This document shows positions 3,740-47,662 of a stretch of DNA of 56,875 bases, piece after piece. The notes under the pieces were generated by a model. The model did no database searches. It was not told the DNA's origin and was given only the letters and a program-made list of their open reading frames with translations. Origin of the DNA: Hydrogenimonas sp. (lineage in GTDB: Bacteria; Campylobacterota; Campylobacteria; Campylobacterales; Hydrogenimonadaceae). The stretch's first letter is position 1. Each line of letters opens with the position of its first letter. The stretch lies in contig WFYC01000019.1 of the NCBI GenBank assembly GCA_015490295.1, forward strand, positions 1 to 56,875. Reading direction: 5' to 3'. The translations under genes were made by a program, and so were the position numbers.

Positions 3740-4897
3740 TTAGAGTCCCAGAGTGCTTTTGAGTGCTTCTATTTTATCTGTTTTCTCCCAGGTAAAGTCG
3801 GAAAGTTCGCGTCCGAAATGCCCATATGTAGCCGTCTGCCTATATATCGGGCGCAACAGGTCGAGCGACTCTATAATACCCTTGGGGGTCAAATCGAAAA
3901 GCTCGTGTATAGACTTTTCGATCCTGCTTTCATCCACTTTGCCGGTTCCGTGCGTATCTACCATGATCGAGACCGGCTCAACCACCCCTATAGCGTATGC
4001 GATCTGTATTGTCACTTTGTCGCAAGCTCCTGCAGCTACAAGATTTTTTGCAACATATCGCGCCGCATAGGCCCCGCTTCTGTCTACCTTTGTAGGATCT
4101 TTGCCGCTGAACGCCCCACCGCCGTGCGGGCAGCTGCCTCCATATGTGTCGACGATGATCTTCCTGCCTGTAAGCCCTGCATCTCCCTGTGGTCCCCCTA
4201 TGACAAAACGTCCTGTAGGGTTGATATGGTAGGTTATATTATCGTCTATGAGCTCTTCGGGAATTACCTTATATATAAGCTCTTCAATGATTGCATTCTT
4301 CAATTTCTCTTGTGAAATATCCGGATCGTGCTGGGTGGATACCACTATTGTTTTGACTTTATTCGGCTTGCCGTCTACATACTCTACCGTAACCTGAGCC
4401 TTACCGTCGGGACGGAGAAAAGGGAGCGTACCGTCCTTTCTGGCTTTAGCCAGCCCTTCGGTGAGCCGGTGGGCAAGATATATCGGAAGAGGCATCAGTG
4501 TAGGCGTCTCCCGACATGCATAACCGAACATCAACCCCTGGTCTCCGGCCCCGATCGCACCGCCGCTTTGATCAACTCCCTGATTGATATCTGGCGACTG
4601 TTCACCGACACCGTTCAAAACTCCTGCGGATCTGTAGTCGAAGCCGTAGAGTGCATCGGTGTATCCTATCTGGCGGACAACCTCACGCGCTATATCCTGC
4701 ATAGGTGCATATGTTTTGGTTTTGAGTTCGCCGGCAATGACGCAAAAACCGTTCGAAAGCATCGTCTCACAGGCGACTCGGGCGTTGGGATCACGTTCAA
4801 TGATATAATCCAGAATCGCGTCGCTTATCTGGTCGGCCATCTTGTCGGGATGCCCTTCGGTGACGGATTCGGAAGTGAAGAGATAGCTTCTTGACAC
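3740..4897 (-). CDS. metK: S-adenosylmethionine synthetase
   Basis: Makes S-adenosylmethionine from methionine and ATP in the cytoplasm. The 385-residue protein starts with a near-invariant N-terminus ([11 protein letters not shown]) and has [12 protein letters not shown] and [16 protein letters not shown], which bind ATP, phosphate and metal. Translation starts at a GTG (4897), preceded by AAGGA at 5-nt spacing. It is divergent from the peroxiredoxin gene across a 140-bp gap holding a promoter for each. Confidence 0.97.
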
Positions 4898-44306: not shown

Positions 44307-45793
44307 CCAAAAGCCCGATCAAAGCGGAACCCGAGATCTACACCGATGTAGCCGATCTCGATTTTTACATAAAAAACGGGCTTCTTTTCGGTATCTACAA
44401 AGGAGAGCCGCACGCATTCATACGTGAAAACCCCGATGCCGACATGCTCAACGCCCTTTCGCATTTCGGTGCGAAACTGCCTCTCGCGATACTCGACGAA
44501 GAGAGCTACGACGCTCTTAAAACCCGTTTTCTCGAGCTGAGAAGCGAAGAGGGAATCGGAGGCGTCGAAGGGTTCGAAACTCCCGAAGAGATAGAGAGTT
44601 TCCTCCAAAACGAAGATCTTCTCGCAAGCGAAGACTCCGCCCCGATAATACGCTACGTAAACTCCCTCTTCGTTCAGGCGCTCAAACGCCGCGCTACGGA
44701 CATACACATAGAGACCTTTGAAAAAGAGGGTGACGTACGTTTCCGCATAGACGGTGTACTGAACAGAATCGCCACACTCAACAAAGGGGCCATAGGCTCC
44801 ATAATAAACCGTATCAAGGTTATCTCCAACCTCGATATTTCGGAGTCCCGCATTCCTCAAGACGGCCGCACGAAGATCACCATAGCGGGTGCGGGCGTAG
44901 ACGTACGCGTCTCCATCCTTCCCACCTACTACGGTGAAAAGGCGGTTCTGAGGCTCCTTATGAAGGGGGAGTCGATACCCTCGCTGCAGCAGCTCGGCTT
45001 TTCCGAAGAGGTCTTTACGAAGCTCAAATCGCTTCTGAAGCACAGCTACGGCATGATTTTGATAACCGGCCCCACGGGAAGCGGAAAATCTACCACCCTG
45101 CACTCGTTTCTAAAAGAGATAGACCATGAGCACTACAACATAGTTACGGTCGAAGACCCGGTCGAATACAACGCCGAAGGGATAAACCAGATACAGGTGA
45201 ACGAGAAGGTCAACCTCACCTTCTCCGAAGCGCTTCGCTCCATTCTGCGCCAGGACCCGGACGTCATAATGGTCGGAGAGATGCGCGACACCGAAACGGC
45301 CAAAATAGCCACACAGGCCGCGATGACAGGCCACCTGCTACTCTCGACACTCCACACCAACAGTGCATCCGCCGCGATCCCGAGGCTCGTTGATATGGGC
45401 ATAGACCCCTTTTTGGTAAGCTCCACCCTTATAGGGATAATCGCCCAGCGGCTGGTGCGCATACTCTGCCCGCACTGTAAAACCTCCTATACACCCAGCG
45501 ACGAGGATATACGCTATTTCGACCTTCCCCACGACATTTCGCTCTTCGGGCCGAAAGGGTGCGACAAATGCGGCGGCACCGGATACATAGGGCGACGTGC
45601 CATCGGAGAGATCATCGTCGTGGATGAAGCGTTTGCCGCCCAGATCAAAAGCGGTGCGGACGAGCAGAGCCTCAAGCGATACCTTCTCGAACACACGGAC
45701 TTCAGGCCGATGTTTACAGAGCTTCGTAGAATGGTTATAGAGGGTGAAACCAGCATACCCGAAGCGGTCCGCATAGGGGTCAAGAGTATATGA
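44303..45793 (+). CDS. gspE: type II secretion ATPase GspE
   Basis: Cytoplasmic hexameric ATPase that drives pseudopilus assembly. The 496 residues contain the N2 domain (RRATDIHIE, RIDGVL), Walker A GPTGSGKSTT, Asp box VTVEDPVEY, Walker B DPDVIMVGEMRD, His box TGHLLLSTLHT and the four-Cys zinc knuckle (CPHC and CDKC). The start overlaps gspD (ATGA); the end overlaps gspF by 4 bp. Confidence 0.96.
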   Translation: MTKSPIKAEPEIYTDVADLDFYIKNGLLFGIYKGEPHAFIRENPDADMLNALSHFGAKLPLAILDEESYDALKTRFLELRSEEGIGGVEGFETPEEIESFLQNEDLLASEDSAPIIRYVNSLFVQALKRRATDIHIETFEKEGDVRFRIDGVLNRIATLNKGAIGSIINRIKVISNLDISESRIPQDGRTKITIAGAGVDVRVSILPTYYGEKAVLRLLMKGESIPSLQQLGFSEEVFTKLKSLLKHSYGMILITGPTGSGKSTTLHSFLKEIDHEHYNIVTVEDPVEYNAEGINQIQVNEKVNLTFSEALRSILRQDPDVIMVGEMRDTETAKIATQAAMTGHLLLSTLHTNSASAAIPRLVDMGIDPFLVSSTLIGIIAQRLVRILCPHCKTSYTPSDEDIRYFDLPHDISLFGPKGCDKCGGTGYIGRRAIGEIIVVDEAFAAQIKSGADEQSLKRYLLEHTDFRPMFTELRRMVIEGETSIPEAVRIGVKSI

Positions 45794-46989
45794 CCTTCCG
45801 CTACAAGGGGTATGACCGCTCCGGCAAACGCGTAAAAGGGATCATAGAGGCGGCAGGCATCGAAGATGCCAAAGAGCAGCTCAGGCATATGGGAGTTTTG
45901 GCCGAAAGCGTCAAGGCCCGTCAAAACCTCTTTAAGAGTGAACTCCCCCCGTCTCTCACCGCCGCGCTGGGACGAAACCTAAGCCTCTACCTCAAAGCCG
46001 GAATCTCCCTGCCTAGAGGACTGCACCTGGTTGCGGAAAACTACCCGGCACGCTCCAAACAGCACCGCTTTTTGGAGGAGGTGGCCAGACTCATAGAGAG
46101 CGGCGGCTCCTTCTACGACGCGCTTGCCGCCCAGAGCGTCTACAGGGTGCCGCCCTTTTTTCTGCAGACGGTAAAGGTGGCACAAAAGAGCGGAAACCTG
46201 GAGATGGTGCTTCTTGAGCTCTCCGACTATGTACAGGAGCAGGAGCGCATAAAAAGAGATGTAGTAAAAGCCTTCATCTACCCCACTTTCATACTTCTCA
46301 TAGCGGTCGCAATGATAAACTTCATGCTTACGACGATCATTCCCAAGATCGTCGATATGTTCGAGGCGACAAAGAGCGAACTGCCTACTTCTACGAAAGT
46401 GACGCTGGCTCTGTCGCACTTTTTCCAGGCATATTCGTGGGCCATGCTGATAGCTGCCGCCGTGATTGCGGCACTTCTGGCCCTTTTGTGGAAAAAGAGT
46501 GAACGCTTCGGCTATATTATGGACAAAACGCTTCTTAAAATCCCGCTTTTCGGCAGTATGATCACAGCGATGGAGCTTGGGCGTTTCGGCCGCGTAATGG
46601 CCCTGCTGCTTCAAAGCGGAGTACCCTTCGCACAGGCTCTCAACTATGCCGTCCAGACTGTCGGAAACCGTTATCTTCGCAAACTTTTCGGTAAAATAGC
46701 GACACAGATCGTAGAGGGTAAAAGCTTCACACAGGCGGTACGCGAAAACGTAAAAAAGGGAGAGATTCCGAACGACTTCATAAACGCCGTGGCACTGGGC
46801 GAAAAGAGCTCTCACCTGGCATTCTCCCTAAAGAGTCTCTCCGAACTCTATGCGGAGCAGAACCGTGACCGAATAGAGGTGATGCTGGCACTCCTTGAGC
46901 CTGTACTTATGCTGGTCATCGGCGGAATCATCGGCTTTTTGGTCATATCGATGCTGCTGCCGATATTCTCGATCAGCTTGGGCGGATAG
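45790..46989 (+). CDS. gspF: type II secretion platform protein GspF
   Basis: Polytopic inner-membrane core of the platform. At 399 residues it has two homologous T2SSF domains (about 60-180 and 270-395), each ending in membrane helices, with the signatures KAGISLPRGL, LQSGVPFAQALNYA and the C-terminal LLEPVLMLVIGGIIGFLV. It is the last gene before the 208-bp insert that separates it from gspG. Confidence 0.95.
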   Translation: MTFRYKGYDRSGKRVKGIIEAAGIEDAKEQLRHMGVLAESVKARQNLFKSELPPSLTAALGRNLSLYLKAGISLPRGLHLVAENYPARSKQHRFLEEVARLIESGGSFYDALAAQSVYRVPPFFLQTVKVAQKSGNLEMVLLELSDYVQEQERIKRDVVKAFIYPTFILLIAVAMINFMLTTIIPKIVDMFEATKSELPTSTKVTLALSHFFQAYSWAMLIAAAVIAALLALLWKKSERFGYIMDKTLLKIPLFGSMITAMELGRFGRVMALLLQSGVPFAQALNYAVQTVGNRYLRKLFGKIATQIVEGKSFTQAVRENVKKGEIPNDFINAVALGEKSSHLAFSLKSLSELYAEQNRDRIEVMLALLEPVLMLVIGGIIGFLVISMLLPIFSISLGG

Positions 46990-47018
46990 TGTTGAGTGCT
47001 CAGTTTTTAGGAGGTTGA

Positions 47019-47192
47019 ATGAGATGTAGGAATCTTGAAGCATGGAAACGCAGCTGTCGGTTGAGTGTAGAAATTTACAAGCACTTTGAAACGTGTGTCG
47101 ATTACGGTTTCAAAGATCAGATCACACGCGGTTCACTTTCGATCGCCGGCAAAAATGTTATCATCACTCAAAAAAAATCACACGAAGGATAA
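47019..47192 (+). pseudogene. truncated four-helix-bundle (S23/IVP-like) gene
   Basis: 57 codons behind a near-perfect AGGAGG site, 5 nt from the ATG. Residues 5-42 (NLEAWKRS, LSVEIYKHFE, YGFKDQITRG, SLSI) follow the first two helices of the four-helix-bundle/S23 family, which is normally about 115-120 residues and continues SIPSNIAEG; here the match ends after SLSI. The insert sits between gspF and gspG; its AAGGA tail now serves as the gspG ribosome-binding site. Confidence 0.65.
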
Positions 47193-47197
47193 ATAGC

Positions 47198-47662
47198 ATG
47201 AACGCTACTCACTCAAAACTCAAAACTCAAAACTCAAAATCCCGTAAAGCCTTCTCGCTGCTCGAGCTGATGATAGTCATCATCATTCTCGGACTTCTGA
47301 GCGCCCTGGTTCTGCCAAACCTCATAGGCAAAGCCGAAAGCGCGAAGCGGAAACTGGTCTGCATACAGATGAAGAATATAGAAGAGGCCCTGAAGTCTTT
47401 CAAGTTCGACAACGGTATGTACCCTACAACCGAAGAGGGCCTCGAGGCGCTGCTGAAAAACCCGGACCACGAGAAGTATACGAACTACTCACCCACCGGA
47501 TATTTCGAGAGCAAGCACCTTCCCAAAGATCCGTGGAAACATAGATATATCTACATCAACAACGGCGGAGAGATCGACATCATCAGCCTCGGCGCGGACG
47601 GCAAAGAGGGTGGTGACGGCGAAGCCGCGGATATCACGCTCAAGGAATGCGAAAGGCAGTAG
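47198..47662 (+). CDS. gspG: major pseudopilin GspG
   Basis: Main subunit of the T2SS pseudopilus. The 154 residues have an unusually long, polar leader of 18 residues, cleaved before FSLLELMIV (Glu at +5, Ala instead of Gly at -1), one hydrophobic helix and a calcium-binding C-terminal loop (SLGADGKEGGDGEAADI). Leader codons 5-14 lie in four copies of a 7-bp repeat, so repeat number sets the reading frame. The start has AAGGA 8 nt upstream. Confidence 0.94.
   Translation: MNATHSKLKTQNSKSRKAFSLLELMIVIIILGLLSALVLPNLIGKAESAKRKLVCIQMKNIEEALKSFKFDNGMYPTTEEGLEALLKNPDHEKYTNYSPTGYFESKHLPKDPWKHRYIYINNGGEIDIISLGADGKEGGDGEAADITLKECERQ
47211..47238 (+). repeat. heptamer tandem repeat (ACTCAAA x4)
   Basis: Four perfect tandem copies of ACTCAAA plus a partial ACTC in front (47207-47210), inside the leader-coding part of gspG. 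The unit length is not a multiple of three, so gain or loss of one copy would shift the frame. A related TTGAGTG lies at the other end of the insert, near 46992. Confidence 0.9.

Follow-up and report, generated by a model that had tools for sequence, protein, structure and literature searches.

Among described systems, the closest to the locus analysed here is the intervening sequence (IVS) of 23S rRNA genes. In Coxiella this IVS combines an S23 gene with a 28-bp inverted terminal stem and tandem GACAGAT heptamers before the gene, and it is cut by RNase III in vitro; the S23 protein itself is, by its authors' own doubt, probably not made in vivo (PMC4990558, in the text available). The elements described below resemble it in the S23 family name, the inverted terminal stem, the heptamers beside the gene and the patchy distribution, and the available part of the same source also calls the IVS selfish (PMC4990558). 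They differ from it in lying between protein genes, in having arms that differ by locus and in possessing hairpin derivatives, and a wobble test (see below) gives RNase III excision no support. The feature in our window (the whole analysed stretch of 56,875 nucleotides from Hydrogenimonas sp.) lies between gspF and gspG, outside an rRNA gene, and is by location not a 23S IVS, but it possesses the gene family and the end structure of one.

Other known repeats share parts of this anatomy. The cyanobacterial STRR are intergenic tandem heptamer arrays, and miniature elements of the MITE or REPIN type are short hairpin copies dispersed through a genome. The latter are like the short hairpins dispersed in both orientations in one of our genomes (G003); unlike them, the present elements have ends fixed by period and not by sequence, and no transposase was identified. 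Heptamer arrays are further described as the TAACTGA arrays of Beggiatoaceae (PMC4679880) and the GGGAATC arrays of Xanthomonas, often in convergent pairs (PMC4692102), and a survey of 7006 prokaryotic genomes found tandem heptamers to be the most abundant intergenic periodic repeats, without a clear clue to their function (PMC6344855). As far as the available text of these sources goes, such arrays share with ours the period of 7, a largely intergenic position and an occurrence in several phyla, as do STRR, but the three papers state no tie to a four-helix-bundle (FHB, S23/IVP) gene. In the trnL group I intron of Nostoc, degenerate heptanucleotide repeats of several classes pair into the P6b hairpin (PMC3488679, PMC4476775); this lies inside an intron and the available text mentions no FHB gene, and kinship of the hairpin with the FHB elements is a suggestion by analogy. 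A literature search, beyond whose reach most subscription papers lay, returned no link of FHB or S23 proteins to heptamer arrays in protein operons; the available part of PMC10910872 names the 23S rRNA IVP solely in a figure legend on CRISPR-linked genes.

The insert between gspF and gspG

The gspF frame ends at 46989 and the gspG ATG follows at 47198, while nearby frames of this type II secretion operon overlap or lie a few bases apart. A preliminary description had singled out this 208-bp gap in a tight operon and had placed in it a truncated S23/IVP frame with a good ribosome-binding site, a TTGAGTG unit at the left (46992-46998) and four ACTCAAA units at the right, the insert also supplying gspG with a ribosome-binding site and leader codons; all of this is borne out (Table 1).

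Table 1. Features at the gspF-gspG junction (positions of the window)
Feature	Position	Strand	Evidence or remark
gspF, upstream neighbour of the insert	45790..46989	+	PF00482 4.4e-49, TIGR02120 1.8e-82
Element remnant (gspF-gspG insert); right array runs on into gspG	46990..47197	+	208 bp; in G004/G015/G009 the gspF stop and the gspG core lie 23/40/53 bp apart
Left arm: TTGAGTG and two degenerate heptamer units	46992..47012	+	2 nt past the gspF stop; G006, G012 and G001 have a similar stretch there
Ribosome-binding site (AGGAGG) of the FHB frame, sharing bases with the last degenerate unit of the left arm	47009..47014	+	Sequence
Truncated FHB frame, 57 aa; match in the first 43-44 residues	47019..47192	+	PF05635, TIGR02436, NF008912
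Remains of the C-terminal FHB tail, in another frame than the N-terminus	47150..47197	+	By-eye alignment with tails in L056, L050, L051
GAAGGA, likely gspG ribosome-binding site, from the insert	47184..47189	+	Sequence
gspG (major pseudopilin); likely leader in residues 1-18, ahead of FSLLE and in part heptamer-encoded	47198..47662	+	TIGR01710 2e-40, PF08334 3.9e-32
Right arm: (ACTCAAA)4, gspG leader codons; period-7 signal 47208-47243	47211..47238	+	Sequence, array scan

Profile searches with the 57-residue frame recovered the S23/IVP family. It matches positions 1-43 of 106 in PF05635 (E 2.9e-7, 31.1 bits, curated cut-off 33.8), exceeds the cut-off of 24 in TIGR02436 with 25.6 bits, and covers the first 44 of 117 positions of NF008912 (5.7e-17, 61.8 bits), where it stays under the cut-off of 124, as a fragment would. 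A complete four-helix protein is therefore not encoded in the window, whereas in G001 the frame is uninterrupted. The PF05635 cut-off is passed by 40 of the 43 matches in the genus, and the three below it are the truncated gspF-gspG copies. By eye the window frame is an FHB N-terminus fused out of frame to the C-terminal tail, and an internal deletion has apparently removed most of the gene, in common with G006 and G012. In a tree, where it fills less than half of the alignment columns, the window frame joins L045 and L046 (100/100), with L013 next (99/74).

The four-helix-bundle accessory protein Avd of DGRs is a pentamer that binds nucleic acid, and it is absent among the PDB matches of the FHB profile up to E 10; the profile does match 2rld and 2gsc. 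A DGR-like reverse-transcriptase partner was rejected as a resident requirement of the elements, PF00078 being found in 2 of 18 genomes against FHB in 17 of 18. For the S23 protein of Xanthomonas, a ring composed of five four-helix bundles has been described (Lin 2006, as cited in the available text of PMC4990558).

An array scan found (ACTCAAA)4 as the sole array of period 5-12 in the window, and an exact tandem ACTCAAA pair occurs in the source genome (82% complete) solely at gspF-gspG. Single ACTCAAA words number 16 in the window against 7.9 expected, and the fifth local one, at 47166, lies by comparison with L056 inside the decayed FHB C-terminal tail, outside the array. The ACTCAAA repeats of the preliminary description stand as an array of four, but not as a motif of the family, since only the period, usually 7, is common to the elements, and one nearby word belongs to the gene. 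The genome-wide search that it proposed for further ACTCAAA arrays gave no second copy. The source genome has three PF05635 matches, namely one between cysD and cysN, one between tpiA and fabI and the gspF-gspG copy, and the first two bear other heptamers. The proposal of a mobile unit with inverted heptamer flanks, made in the preliminary description, likewise holds in part: the inverted arm design is clear only in intact relatives and has decayed in the window copy, where the best gapped match of the left and right arms scores 14 and is equalled by 9 of 42 mismatched right flanks, and mobility is something that we infer from the comparisons below.

The sequence just after the ATG reads as the leader codons HSKLKTQNSK, followed by SRKAFSLLE. 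The start and leader codons of gspG come from the insert, and the heptamer-encoded stretch is likely to be part of a cleaved prepilin leader of GspG. The same holds for the intact insert of G001, which contains or adjoins the start and leader codons of gspG and whose FHB stop overlaps the gspG ATG (ATGA), so that capture of the start was possible before decay. At L001:1501-1899 the FHB frame between cysD and cysN overlaps the cysN start, and CysN begins with MTNNEQRTT encoded by GAACAAC heptamers; this is a second example of a right array supplying leader codons.

A GspG match of some sort was recovered in all 18 genomes of the family (G-numbers; L-numbers denote loci), those of G007 and G014 being weak pilin-type matches. 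The gspF-gspG junction was readable at 12 of the 16 other loci, G013 being masked and gspF falling outside the stretch in G005, G011 and G016. Neither finding that the preliminary description had named as fatal to it came up: the frame matches the family, and the long inserts of most relatives contain an FHB gene, scraps of one or arrays. G001 has an uninterrupted FHB gene between TTGAGTG and CACTCAA arrays, G002 an FHB gene with one stop and arrays on either side, and G000, G012 and G006 have the truncated frame in common; apparent later stages, read by eye, are an FHB scrap with arrays in G008, arrays in G003 and a C-terminal FHB scrap in G017. The remaining junctions are the short ones listed in Table 1 and a 118-bp spacer in G010, which is hard to place in the decay series.

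Arm matching, period and concerted change around FHB genes

The 43 FHB matches in 17 of the 18 family genomes are spread over about a dozen junctions; apart from gspF and gspG, the genes there (cysD, tpiA, hldE and others) were named by eye from translations. Their left and right arrays mostly mirror each other, and the heptamers vary by site and often by species. Together with 79 cross-phylum loci (from one contig profile scan, of whose at least 582 matches the best 80 were taken and 79 used) and 29 further loci, they form a set of 151, all best matches and from many phyla; other samples comprised 30 of 62 matches in one search and 12 of 16 in another. Two loci whose flanks were too short, L160 and L305, were set aside, and 12 duplicate loci were removed before the period-lineage, near-copy and 29-locus tests.

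Arms were compared by the ungapped score of the left flank against the reverse complement of the right, with a threshold of at least 14 and mismatched (trans) pairs as reference. At this threshold 116 of the 151 loci match in cis, as against 4-8% of mismatched pairs: in the genus 30 of 43 (mean 19.3 in cis, 9.9 in trans; 7.59% of trans pairs), across phyla 62 of 79 (19.0 and 9.5; 4.28%) and in the further loci 24 of 29 (5.91%), while in control regions about 900 nt further out a score of 14 was reached in 2 of 71. The statement in the preliminary description that FHB genes often lie beside heptamer arrays is thus broadly true. The other 35 loci fall below the threshold, and the window copy, whose terminal inverted repeats are degraded, is by itself not significant. 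We regard the anatomy of left array, FHB gene and mirror-image right array as well supported for the family as a whole.

Of 121 left flanks, 52 have 7 as their single best lag, as have 50 of 120 right flanks (far controls 7 of 114 and 6 of 111); a lag of 8 is best in 14 left and 10 right, and a lag of 9 in 4 and 6. Stretches in which at least 17 of 21 positions match at lag 7 are also present in far controls (6 of 114 and 4 of 111). Strict arrays in the 43 genus flanks have period 7 in 8 left and 15 right cases, period 14 in 3 and 3 and period 15 in one, and none has a period of 4-6 or 8-13. The period is usually 7 and sometimes 8 or 9, and the sequence of the arms is nearly free. That the FHB lineage sets the period was considered and rejected: over 95 loci of period 7, 10 of period 8 and 3 of period 9 there are 10 changes against 12.7 after shuffling, a value as low being seen in 1 of 200, a weak clustering that near copies may cause. 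L216 and L234, sister FHBs from different phyla (100/98), both have period-9 arrays, and two other Brocadia copies, L281 and L303, have period 7.

Of 42 same-junction pairs, 33 show greater likeness between an element's own arms than between orthologous arms, and the nine exceptions are mostly pairs with similar heptamers. This comparison started from 32 of the 43 genus loci, the near-duplicate L020, the three truncated gspF-gspG copies and single-locus or ambiguous sites being left out; after removal of eight loci with an arm score below 14 and of the partnerless L013, 23 elements remained, which give the 42 pairs. At tpiA-fabI the nine FHBs fall together with good support (100/99, L038 included), and yet their arms are AACTAAA-, GTAAAAG- or GAGAAAT-like according to species. 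Close to one or both arms of L015, L026, L030 and others a short GC-rich palindrome of the GCGCTTTGCGC or CCGCTTCGCGG type is seen by eye.

Filled and short junctions, and dispersed hairpins

The same junctions are occupied in some genomes and short in others. In the genus, 6 of the 15 cysD-cysN junctions read hold an FHB gene, four (G001, G004 and second copies in G003 and G016) span 2-23 bp, and five span 73-186 bp without FHB, some of them with arrays; at tpiA-fabI an FHB gene is present at 8 of the 14 junctions read, and L111 (G006) is an inverted array pair without one. CysN is found in 59 of 59 Pseudomonas genomes, and the 30 cysD-cysN junctions read among them comprise six elements of 455-499 bp, one remnant of 115 bp and 23 spacers of 9-14 bp. 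In a tree of 123 rows, with few columns and so with unsure weaker forks, neither the cysD-cysN nor the hldDE occupants form a single group: L008 groups with Bacteroidota and Nitrospirota rows (100/90), L023 with murC-site rows (99/97) and L027, at hldDE, with four cysD-cysN rows (100/94), and the Sulfurovum locus L181, which seems to lie at a different site, is nested among gspF-gspG rows (100/87-88). Recent transposition of a whole FHB element was looked for in seven pairs of at least 78% DNA identity and found in none (L011 and L044 share a contig, and one pair matches through gspG). Among the compared loci no FHB gene recurs nearly unchanged at a second site, and FHB-carrying copies may therefore move rarely or by recombination with flanking genes. 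One query protein gave no sign of phage carriage, and the eight plasmid records with a match are all cyanobacterial.

FHB-less copies were traced in G003 with the pattern GTCGATRGTCGATRGTCGAT (2 mismatches) for the heptamer GTCGATR. It has 52 matches at about 13 places there, against 1 for the reversed control; one place is the hldDE element L027, and the roughly 12 others, which lack an FHB gene, flank none of the three PF05635 matches of this genome. The pattern is absent in 8 of the 18 genomes and has 1-8 matches in the other nine, including genomes without an FHB gene of that heptamer (e.g. G013, G012 and G010). Six of the FHB-less places in G003 fall in its two rRNA operons, between which copying may occur: hairpins occupy the 16S-tRNA-Ile, tRNA-Ile-tRNA-Ala and 23S-5S spacers of both (L137:1113-1345 and 4569-4642; L441), two of them have inner sequence in common in opposite orientation, and the remaining places are single arrays or a pair. 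In G002 one 16S-tRNA-Ile spacer lacks such an insert and the other is masked; in G017 this spacer holds a different hairpin, whose left half resembles the left end of that genome's own tpiA-fabI element L030. Thus, FHB-less copies can carry the ends of an FHB-bearing copy of the same genome (L027 in G003, L030 in G017). No target-site duplication was obvious by eye at the rRNA-spacer copies. Taken with the junction comparisons, we infer that FHB elements are mobile, akin to the 23S rRNA IVS, and have hairpin derivatives.

Three further observations concern these repeats. Directly after the 23S-5S hairpin copy stands a run of ten A (L137:4642-4651). At L440 (G003:C1:1931600-1933700), positions 982-1043, a 62-nt stretch of GTCGATR/GTCAATA heptamers stands where a spacer would be, beside the degenerate end repeat of a CRISPR array; as two neighbouring spacers measure 34 nt, 62 nt equals a spacer plus four units, and the stretch may be a spacer acquired from an element and then expanded, or an insertion. 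Period-7 arrays number 6 in 400 kb of G003 and 3 in 390 kb of G016, which has no FHB match, and 0 in 400 kb each of Brocadia (8 FHB) and one Pseudomonas, other periods giving 0-2 arrays in each background sample.

Explanations of the insert and of its family

We interpret the window insert as a dead, decayed and partly co-opted copy of an IVS-like mobile element whose arms are kept matched, and which here has become the leader of gspG; we give this reading a probability of about 0.78. An intact element consists of a left array of units of about 7 nt, one FHB gene and a right array reverse-complementary to the left. It inserts at tight gene junctions, mostly along the direction of transcription; the host operon would provide transcription, and the FHB protein would bind the arms. 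At the level of DNA one arm could serve as template for the other and slippage could add units, and this combination could keep the arms matched as their sequence drifts; the machinery of movement may be supplied by the host. In the window copy an internal deletion, judged by eye, has taken most of the FHB gene, and the right end now gives gspG its ribosome-binding site, start codon and part of a probably cleaved prepilin leader.

The most durable alternative, which we nonetheless hold doubtful, is an element acting at the level of RNA, in which the arms pair within the polycistronic mRNA so that the FHB gene is looped out, RNase III cuts the resulting stem as in the 23S rRNA IVS, and selection on the RNA keeps the arms matched. 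It draws on the RNase III cutting of the anatomically similar Coxiella IVS in vitro (PMC4990558, in the text available) and on the orientation of the elements: of 60 cross-phylum loci with both sides called, 45 are ++, 5 -+, 5 +- and 5 --, a bias to sense, and the genus has 33 ++ loci among 43 and no antisense one. These calls were made by amino-acid composition (two minus calls in the genus, L028 and L033, were judged wrong from the downstream genes); a test by longest open reading frame was discarded as unreliable, since it put tpiA and other known upstream genes on the antisense strand. Selection on an RNA stem would, however, favour mismatches that G-U pairing tolerates, and over 92 loci transitions compatible with G-U in the sense RNA number 104 against 145 of the opposite kind (p=0.011 in the other direction), a result that strand-biased mutation or the nature of the arrays could distort. 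It leans to a process at the level of DNA, and a G003 hairpin copy occurs in both orientations; it is for its orientation bias that the RNA explanation is retained despite the wobble test.

It is unlikely that the FHB gene belongs to the settled gene set of the host, with little or no mobility, for instance as one that regulates translation of its operon by binding to the arrays. This view would accord with the single group formed by the tpiA-fabI FHBs, with the possible stop-start overlap of the FHB and downstream genes, as in G001, and with the lack of recent whole-element transposition among the loci compared, but it sits poorly with the short junctions and the decay series in relatives, with the different FHB lineages at one junction and with the dispersed FHB-less places of G003. 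Much less probable still are ordinary slippage-prone simple repeats without a tie to the FHB gene: heptanucleotide repeats are known in phase-variable genes (from sources seen in part), and as seven is not a multiple of three, changes of unit number in the gspG leader would shift the frame, but inverted copies of the array stand on both sides of the gene and the genus flanks lack strict arrays of periods 4-6 and 8-13, so that this account was already disfavoured. Chance similarity in a non-functional spacer, for which the PF05635 score just below the cut-off and the weak arm match of the window might speak, can be set aside in view of the NF008912 and TIGR02436 matches and is refuted by the intact element at gspF-gspG in G001.

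Beyond the decayed-element reading of the window, we tentatively put forward a wider proposal, to which we assign somewhat less than even chances. FHB genes with inverted heptamer arrays might define a bacteria-wide class of transposable elements whose ends are set by period and not by sequence, the FHB protein measuring the unit and guiding the copying of one arm from the other, so that the arms would remain matched as their sequence drifts freely. FHB-less hairpins would be its miniatures, and the 23S IVS, the Nostoc trnL P6b hairpin and much of the unexplained intergenic heptamer arrays of prokaryotes its members or relics.

Tying one protein family to heptamers makes the question testable, as FHB genes predict sites of paired arrays, and a sequence that the two arms have in common, yet that is otherwise free, points to an unusual copying process. 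The findings further suggest that the 23S rRNA intervening sequence is perhaps one site of a wider family of elements, and the window shows such an element absorbed into a host gene, in the leader of gspG. FHB elements occur between genes in many bacterial phyla, and may account for the widespread heptamer repeats to which earlier surveys could assign no cause.
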